This document shows, piece after piece, positions 3,058 to 4,584 of a stretch of DNA of 10,765 nucleotides. Every line of letters starts with the position of its first letter. The stretch's first letter is position 1. Below the pieces are notes generated by a model. That model did not search any database. It had not been told where the DNA came from and saw only the letters and a program-made list of their open reading frames with translations. This stretch comes from Pediococcus sp. (GTDB lineage: Bacteria > Bacillota > Bacilli > Lactobacillales > Lactobacillaceae). Made by a program: the position numbers and the translations under genes. The stretch is taken from NCBI GenBank assembly GCA_022712335.1, contig JALAGR010000191.1:1-10765 (forward strand). The letters are read 5' to 3'.

Positions 3058-3215
3058 TGTATTTCACCTCCTGAATGATTGTTGAACCATAAAAAAATTC
3101 GTACCCCAGAAAGACTCTGAGATACGAATAGTTTCATACGTTCCTCGGCAGGCAATATATTAAGGCCAAACATGGCCACCTGAGTCTTAGGTAAATTATT
3201 CAGTTATAATTCACT
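3058..3215 (-). ncRNA. L10-type ribosomal protein leader (autoregulatory attenuator)
   Basis: The RNA between the rplJ promoter and rplJ contains a GGCC-AUGUUU-GGCC hairpin (3164-3177). It is enclosed by CAGG (3179-3182) pairing with CCUG (3149-3152), followed by CCUGCCGAGG, a string I recall as typical of Firmicute L10 leaders. The terminator at 3091-3129 follows. AAGACUC (3182-3188) is perfectly complementary over 7 nt to GAGUCUU (3111-3117) in the terminator loop and 5' arm, giving a candidate antiterminator. By family knowledge, the L10-L12 complex binds the upstream structure and favours termination when L10 is in excess. The exact 5' end is inferred from the promoter. Confidence 0.88.
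3091..3129 (-). terminator. Attenuator terminator inside the rplJ leader
   Basis: On the - strand AUUCGUA-UCUCAGA pairs along 14 positions with UCUGGGG-UACGAAU (two U-G wobbles) around loop GUCUU and ends in a run of seven U. It lies about 33 bases before the rplJ start, so it must be bypassed for rplJ-rplL expression. Its 5' arm and loop overlap the segment complementary to 3182-3188. Confidence 0.92.
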
Positions 3216-3256: not shown

Positions 3257-3946
3257 TTAGAATTGAGAAAAGTCAACCTTAACTCCTGGTCCAAATGTTG
3301 ATGCAACTGATACGTTTTGTACGTAAGCACCCTTAACAGATGCAGGACGTAAACGAACGATTGTATCGTTGATTGTTTGCAAGTTACCAAGTAATTGGTC
3401 AGCATCAAATGATACTTTACCGATTGGCACATGAACGTTACCATCACGGTCTGTACGGTATGTAACCTTACCAGACTTAGAATCAGCAACAGCCTTTTCA
3501 ACATCCATAGTAACTGTACCAGTCTTAGGGTTAGGCATTAAGTTCTTAGGTCCCAATACGCGACCTAAACGTCCTACTTGTCCCATCATGTCTGGTGTTG
3601 CGATAGCAACGTCAAAGTCCAACCATCCATCTTGGATACGTTGTACTAAGTCATCGTCACCAACAACGTCTGCACCAGCTGCTTTAGCTGCTTCAGCCTT
3701 AGCACCCTTAGCAAATACAACAACTGTTTGTTCTTTACCAGTACCGTTTGGTAAAACAACGGCACCACGAAGTTGTTGGTCAGCTTGCTTTGTGTCAACG
3801 TTCAACTTGTATACTGTTTCAACAGTAGCGTCGAACTTTGCAAAATCAATTTTCTTAACTAATTCAAGAGCTTCTTTTGGAGCATAAGCCTTAAGAGCTT
3901 CTACTTGTTTTGCAGCGTCTTGAAACTTTTTACCTTTTTTAGCCAT
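3257..3946 (-). CDS. rplA: 50S ribosomal protein L1
   Basis: A 229-residue protein, the usual bacterial L1 length. L1 binds the mobile L1 stalk of 23S rRNA, helps release deacylated tRNA from the E site and in many bacteria represses its own mRNA. The family signature is at about 119-141 ([20 protein letters not shown], then PKT). The N- and C-terminal segments form the rRNA-binding domain I and the middle (about 68-160) forms domain II. ATG at 3946 is preceded by AGGAGG with an 11-base spacer. rplK lies 92 bases upstream. That gap holds a structure resembling the L1-binding site at 3971-3996, about 8 bases before the ribosome binding site, suggesting direct autorepression. Confidence 0.97.
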
Positions 3947-3970
3947 CTGTGTGTTTTCCTCCTAGCAAAT

Positions 3971-3996
3971 GTGGTTATAGCGGATTTTCCTCCCAC
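3971..3996 (-). promoter_or_regulatory. Candidate L1-binding autoregulatory site upstream of rplA
   Basis: The - strand RNA reads GUGG, then GA, then a GGA-AAA-UCC hairpin, then GCUAUAA, then CCAC. GUGG pairs with CCAC and GGA with UCC, leaving an asymmetric internal loop of 2 against 7 nt. This matches the plan of the site at 4494-4530 and resembles the L1 site of 23S rRNA helices 76-78, which in E. coli contains GGUGGGAGG and a later CCACC (from memory). It ends about 24 bases before the rplA ATG. A separate hairpin (GAUAC-UUCAC / GUGGA-GUAUC, 4000-4024) lies immediately 5'. Binding is inferred. Confidence 0.6.
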
Positions 3997-4038
3997 TTTG
4001 ATACATCCACTTTAGTGAAGTATCCGACAGTGCGTGTA

Positions 4039-4464
4039 TTAGCCTTCGACAACGAATCCCATACTACGTGCTGTACCTTCGATCATGCGCATAGCAGCTT
4101 CAACATCTGCAGCGTTTAGATCTTGCATTTTTGATTCAGCGATTTCCTTAACTTGAGCAGAAGTAACTGTTGCTACTTTGTTCGTGTTAGGTTCACCAGA
4201 ACCGTGTTCTACACCAGCAGCTTTCTTCAAAAGAACTGAAGCAGGTGGTGTCTTTGTAACGAAGTCGAATGAACGGTCTTCGTAAACTGTGATTACAACA
4301 GGAATTAACAAGCCAGCTTGGTCAGCTGTACGTGCGTTAAAGTCCTTTGTAAATCCCATAATATTAATACCTGCTTGTCCAAGAGCTGGTCCAACCGGTG
4401 GAGCTGGAGTTGCTTTTCCTGCAGGAATTTGCAATTTAACAATGTTTGCTACTTTCTTTGCCAC
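4039..4464 (-). CDS. rplK: 50S ribosomal protein L11
   Basis: A 141-residue protein, the standard L11 length. L11 binds the GTPase-associated region of 23S rRNA and takes part in factor-dependent GTP hydrolysis and the stringent response. The N-terminal domain has the Pro-rich thiopeptide-site region [17 protein letters not shown] (about 14-30, including P22 and P23). The C-terminal rRNA-binding domain begins near residue 70 and ends [14 protein letters not shown]. The start is GTG at 4464, giving [10 protein letters not shown], with AAGGAGG 8 bases upstream. An earlier in-frame start would add about 26 residues foreign to L11, and the nearby ATG at the ribosome binding site is out of frame. 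Its leader carries a promoter and a candidate L1 site. Confidence 0.97.
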
Positions 4465-4493
4465 GAGACATACCTCCTTAAAATAAGTCCGTG

Positions 4494-4530
4494 TGTGGTC
4501 ACGATGAAGATTTATATTTCTTCTCCCACA
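4494..4530 (-). promoter_or_regulatory. Candidate L1-binding autoregulatory site in the rplK leader
   Basis: The - strand RNA reads UGUGG, then GA, then GAAGA, loop AAUAUAAA, UCUUC, then AUCGUGA, then CCACA. Two helices (UGUGG/CCACA and GAAGA/UCUUC) flank a 2-by-7 asymmetric loop, the same plan as at 3971-3996. It includes the string GUGGGAG found in the 23S rRNA L1 site. In E. coli L1 represses rplK-rplA by binding such a leader. It starts close to the expected 5' end of the rplK transcript, after a 6-bp hairpin AGUAUG/CAUACU (4534-4550). Confidence 0.65.
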
Positions 4531-4555: not shown

Positions 4556-4584
4556 ATAGTACCACACACGAAATGTTAGTTCAA
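4556..4584 (-). promoter_or_regulatory. Promoter of rplK-rplA
   Basis: On the - strand TTGAAC (4579-4584) and TACTAT (4556-4561) are 17 bases apart. TGG precedes the -10, giving an extended -10. The expected start is near 4549, leaving a leader of about 85 bases. The -35 lies 8 bases downstream of the nusG stop, and no terminator is seen between nusG and rplK, so read-through is also likely. Confidence 0.75.

Follow-up and report, generated by a model that had tools for sequence, protein, structure and literature searches.

The element between rplK and rplA in a Pediococcus genome (positions 3971–3996, minus strand) is very probably a uL1-binding site of a Firmicutes-type dual-site L11–L1 operon, through which L1 would repress rplA directly. 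This reading draws on the sequence and location of the element, on its conservation among relatives and on its resemblance to the L1 region of 23S rRNA and to the Escherichia coli rplK leader, from which we infer binding and repression by L1.

Results

The L11–L1 operon of the window

The window, meaning the whole stretch of 10,765 nt that was analysed, carries on its minus strand rplK, encoding ribosomal protein uL11 (4039–4464, with a GTG start at 4464), and, after a gap of 92 nt, rplA (3257–3946, ATG at 3946), encoding the 229-amino acid uL1. Bacterial L1 chains were the top matches of the rplA product among solved structures, identifying it as uL1, and its nearest named relative was that of Pediococcus pentosaceus (99% identity). 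Two further minus-strand ORFs were named rplJ and rplL by eye and from the L10 leader preceding them (RF00557, 64 bits; 3083–3209, minus strand), which lies between rplA and rplJ. None of the 12 window matches in Rfam 15 (up to E 10) overlapped either L1-type site; these matches included no L1-site family, and the result was not counted against L1-site membership. Elsewhere in the window, a near-perfect inverted repeat at 2019–2071, between the ORF 1568–2017 and the convergent ORF 2144–2524, is probably a two-way terminator, and gave weak matches to microRNA models on both strands in the Rfam scan.

Anatomy of the two L1-type sites

The rplA-proximal site, recognized by sequence and conservation, comprises GTGG (3996–3993), GA (3992–3991), GGA (3990–3988), AAA (3987–3985), TCC (3984–3982), GCTATAA (3981–3975) and CCAC (3974–3971), giving 26 nt in the rplK–rplA gap that read GUGG-GA-GGA-AAA-UCC-GCUAUAA-CCAC as RNA; on the minus strand, the coordinates and anatomy given in the original prediction were exact. 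It has the architecture of uL1 sites, with a short outer helix, an asymmetric internal loop and an inner stem–loop, and it precedes the translation start of rplA. The rplA Shine–Dalgarno sequence AGGAGG (3958–3963, minus strand) follows 7 nt (ATTTGCT) 3′ of the site, with 11 nt between AGGAGG and the ATG, so that the predicted placement before the Shine–Dalgarno sequence was right and only the distance, put at about 8 nt, needed correction. The rplK-leader site (4495–4529, minus strand), recognized by sequence, conservation and the inner-stem test, reads GTGG GA GAAGA AATATAAA TCTTC ATCGTGA CCAC.

Comparisons with 23S rRNA and the E. coli leader were made by eye, with no score. The rplA site resembles the L1 region of 23S rRNA in both E. 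coli and Pediococcus. In E. coli this region reads GTGGGAGGC...GAAATACCACC; the uL1 target shares GUGGGAGGC...GAAAUACCACC with the rplA site, and the rRNA near 2121 reads GTGGGAGGCTTTGAAG...GGAGCCGACCTTGAAATACCACC. Unlike the mRNA site, the rRNA target, formed by helices H76–H78 as named in PMC10931766, has a long apical part. The Pediococcus 23S rRNA (L269–L272) reads GTAGGAG...ATACTAC, with an outer helix GUAG/CUAC in contrast to the GUGG/CCAC of its mRNA sites, so that the mRNA copy resembles the E. coli rRNA more than it does the rRNA of Pediococcus. Since the Pediococcus rRNA differs, 23S-site patterns gave no match in 13 genomes each. For the E. coli rplK leader the fold is GGG-GA-GCCUC-UCA-GAGGC-GUUAUUA-CCC, and this GGG-GA-stem-GUUAUUA-CCC architecture is the same as that of the rplA site. 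Its end is close to the GUUAUAA-CCAC ends found in lactobacilli, where several rplA sites end GTTATAACCAC.

Conservation of the rplA site

Within a single window, the motif is thin evidence: two copies of GTGGGAG are present where 0.43 would be expected, and at least two also appeared in 14 of 200 shuffles. The genome assembly (1.16 Mb, 76% complete) contains five matches to GTGGGAG-N(5–30)-CCAC, two of which are the rplA and rplK sites. It is because of its conservation in relatives that the rplA site is more than chance. Every genome searched in the genus (12, counting the one that holds the window) has it together with its Shine–Dalgarno sequence. A strict pattern, GTGGGAG-N(4–34)-CCAC at most 130 nt before rplA, was scored in three sets: Lactobacillaceae (the best 80 of 575 relatives), class Bacilli (70 other genera, one genome each, from 119 matching genomes besides the window's own) and other Bacillota (one genome per family, for 60 of the 62 families with a match). 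It was found in 78/80 loci, 69/70 genera and 57/60 families, respectively, amounting to 204 sites and six misses, and the pairing elements and GA loop, whose comparison across relatives had been suggested as a test, are thus conserved through the phylum.

Among the misses, the relaxed scan showed L225 to share the architecture but to have a longer hairpin, and L211 to carry GTGGAAG, and by eye L144 carries GTGGCAGGGTAACCGCGATGACCAC. L260 has a 20-nt rplK–rplA gap, no rplA site and an rplK site only. The remaining two, L038 and L043, belong to Furfurilactobacillus and carry GGTGGAAGATG upstream and ...ACCACATTTGC before the Shine–Dalgarno sequence, with an enlarged middle. By eye, they are perhaps not plain losses and may be enlarged GTGGAAG forms whose middle holds a long insert; the relaxed scan recovered the rplA site in neither, and in the fold of L043 a GUGG/CCAC helix is restored, inner stem included. 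The rplK–rplA gaps of L038 and L043 are 314 and 146 nt, and in both rplK starts with ATG and is without the CACGG hairpin described below.

When AGGAGG was also required 4–12 nt downstream, the pattern matched only 63 of 299 genomes phylum-wide, some of these matches being rplK sites or unrelated places; this lower yield arises because the distance from site to Shine–Dalgarno sequence is shorter in many families. In 203 of the 204 strict rplA sites, CCAC was followed by GGAG or GGGG at a distance of 0–9 nt; in the remaining site the distance was 15 nt.

Spread of the rplK-leader site

The same strict pattern, applied to the 200 nt before rplK, was present in all 78 testable Lactobacillaceae loci (L067 and L077 were excluded for too little sequence), in at least 59 of 70 Bacilli genera and in at least 14 of 60 other Bacillota families. 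A relaxed descriptor recovered all of these strict sites (59/59 and 14/14) and added 0/11 in Bacilli and 4/46 in other Bacillota; the four extra matches, at least two of which resemble coding sequence, were taken as chance, although shuffles yielded 0.6. Both descriptors missed the E. coli rplK leader, a known site, and the rplK-site counts are therefore lower bounds. A strict rplK site was missing from 57 genera and families, and the rplA site is present in 55 of these (10/11 and 45/46). By pattern, the rplA site thus appears to be the more widespread of the two in the sampled Bacillota.

One fold of the rplK leader was dominated by an upstream CGUGUGUGG that would compete with the L1 helix for CCACACACG; a switch of this kind was rejected, as the stretch is not conserved in the leaders of relatives and is probably not transcribed. 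It sits between TTGAAC (4579–4584) and TACTAT (4556–4561), which are 17 nt apart, and by eye is probably promoter; the TTGAAC/TACTAT pair was not among the output of a promoter scan.

Structure tests and folding

The outer helix is built into the search pattern and barely varies, and it therefore yields no evidence from covariation. The inner stem was tested with Watson–Crick pairs only, swapping halves between distinct sites; this replaced an earlier test that also allowed G–U pairs and a 4-nt strand and gave a weaker contrast at the rplA site. The two inner pairs (GG/CC) of the rplA site were present in 29/29 distinct sites in Lactobacillaceae (swapped maximum 28), 59/61 in Bacilli (maximum 56) and 57/57 in other Bacillota (maximum 54). 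At least three pairs were formed in 37/61 sites in Bacilli and 53/57 in other Bacillota, against swapped maxima of 34 and 41, respectively; in Lactobacillaceae the figure was 12/29 (swapped mean 11.3, maximum 14), leaving the third pair unsupported in that family. At the rplK site, at least four inner pairs were formed in 47/54 sites in Lactobacillaceae (maximum 16), 32/56 in Bacilli (maximum 20) and 10/14 in other Bacillota (maximum 6).

The rplK–rplA spacer of the window folds slightly better than shuffles (z −1.46), and its minimum-energy fold is without the rplA site, whose enforcement costs approximately 3.2 kcal/mol. In a wider fold, the GUGG/CCAC helix at this site has a modelled probability of 0.02 in the window, with medians of 0.072, 0.077 and 0.071 in Lactobacillaceae, Bacilli and other Bacillota, where it exceeded 0.5 in 3/78, 16/69 and 10/57 sites, respectively. 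For the rplK outer helix, the probability is 0.0 in the window, with medians of 0.089, 0.36 and 0.156 in the same sets. The naked rplA site is thus predicted by the model to be unstable, which may mean that L1 stabilizes it. Energy models of this kind are ignorant of the non-canonical pairs in such loops. A pairing of the AGUG of the site with an upstream CACU, seen in the fold, was discarded as it was not conserved on reading the spacers of relatives.

Accompanying hairpins

The rplA site is immediately preceded on its 5′ side by a hairpin, GATACTTCAC-TAAA-GTGGA-T-GTATC (4000–4024, minus strand), identified from the fold and from pair counts in relatives. It was scored in 46 of 81 loci (the window included; 30 distinct sequences), in which an A-run precedes the site; the remaining 35 were left out of the scoring, and by eye a number of these have a different hairpin. 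Standard pairs filled 260 of 300 pair cells, compared with at most 233 in 500 shuffles, and changes occurred on both sides, indicating covariation. Against mononucleotide shuffles, the spacer before the rplA site gave a mean z of −3.56 in Bacilli (47/64 below −2), −1.82 in Lactobacillaceae (34/77 below −2) and −0.56 in other Bacillota (6/25 below −2), the last being hardly better than chance.

At the start of rplK, the sequence and a test in relatives identify a hairpin (4462–4493, minus strand) between CACGGAC (4493–4487) and GTCTCGTG (4469–4462). This CACGGAC/GUCUCGUG hairpin encloses the rplK Shine–Dalgarno sequence and pairs the GTG start, a codon found in 76 of 77 Lactobacillaceae loci. 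Of 32 distinct Lactobacillaceae sequences, 23 formed a helix of six or more pairs here, compared with a mean of 7.1 and a maximum of 13 after shuffling. In Bacilli, 19/48 sequences formed it, a count within the shuffled range (maximum 20, mean 13.1), and in other Bacillota 1/14 did (shuffled mean 2.6).

Discussion

According to a 2024 review (PMC10931766), the L1 site lies before rplK in Proteobacteria and before rplA in Actinobacteria and Cyanobacteria, whereas some groups, such as Firmicutes, have two, upstream of rplK and of rplA (citing Fu et al., 2013); the review also reports two sites in Thermus thermophilus and Thermotoga maritima. The Firmicutes arrangement, like that of Pediococcus, has an irregular stem–loop with an internal bulge before each gene, and in the part of these sources available to us nothing was found that sets the Pediococcus case apart. 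Conservation, position and likeness to L1 targets uphold the proposal of a second L1-type site with direct access to rplA; its supposed unusualness is not upheld, as two Firmicutes sites are in print (PMC10931766) and the rplA site is by pattern the more widespread one. The dual-site arrangement of Pediococcus is thus already known, and one more genome is added to it. The abstract of the 2013 study is said to report biochemical confirmation of dual L1 sites in Firmicutes. The partial literature on L1 regulation covered by our search, which did not extend to the text of Fu et al. (2013), nowhere described the rplA site as more widespread than the rplK site.

We propose the following scenario for the regulation of rplA. 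When uL1 is in excess of free 23S rRNA, it would bind the rplA hairpin, which with its pair of short helices and its asymmetric internal loop is similar to the target of L1 in 23S rRNA. The complex, 7 nt before the Shine–Dalgarno sequence, would keep 30S subunits off rplA, and the rplK-leader site would act likewise on rplK. The short spacing between CCAC and GGAG or GGGG would fit such direct hindrance of the 30S subunit.

Escherichia coli differs in having a single L1 site, through which L1 represses rplK, and in having rplA 3 nt after rplK, where translational coupling passes the effect on (PMC12548453). A similar arrangement in Pediococcus, in which the rplK-leader site would be the only one active in vivo, with a weak or silent rplA copy and with rplA tied to rplK through translational coupling, has this precedent in its favour, together with the better-supported inner stem of the rplK site in Lactobacillaceae (at least four pairs in 47 of 54 distinct sites). 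We nevertheless consider it improbable, as, among the 57 genera and families sampled that lack a strict rplK site, 55 retain the rplA site and the rplK–rplA gap is at least 87 nt in the 79 measured Lactobacillaceae loci, whereas coupling is, according to a published abstract, most efficient over short distances. The gap ranges from 87 to 314 nt in these loci, from 48 to 339 nt in Bacilli (70 measured) and from 20 to 192 nt in other Bacillota (60 measured), with medians of 98, 99.5 and 58.5 nt, respectively, compared with 3 nt in E. coli. Coupling may be unable to carry repression across so long a gap, which would make a separate rplA site necessary, and given these lengths such a site would be an economical route for self-repression by L1. 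The link between gap length and the rplA site rests on one family and E. coli, because only one sampled family has a gap of about 20 nt.

Still less probable, in our judgement, is that the conserved structure serves a role other than L1 binding, such as in the processing or stability of the mRNA between the two genes. The weak naked fold of the rplA site would be compatible with such a role, as would the well-folding spacer directly upstream of it in Bacilli (mean z −3.56; 47/64 below −2). Outside Bacilli, however, that upstream hairpin is no companion of the site, being near it in 7 of 25 cases against 6.8 expected from shuffles, and the letters that are conserved match the L1 region of 23S rRNA and the rplK-leader site, and lie at L1's own gene.

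Regarding the relationship between the two L1-binding sites, we suggest tentatively, and with rather less than even confidence, that the rplA site may be the primary and older L1 control in Bacillota, kept where the gap is too long for coupling. The rplK site would then be an addition, most common in Bacilli, that provides separate control of L11, helped in lactobacilli by the hairpin at the Shine–Dalgarno sequence and GTG start, and L11 and L1 would each have a switch of its own, the two differing in strength.

The Pediococcus operon represents one more genome in which L1 control in Firmicutes need not depend on coupling alone, and the present survey supplies counts for the spread of each L1 site. 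If gap length and the rplA site do go together across phyla, this would provide a testable rule for the way in which operons exchange coupling for additional binding sites.
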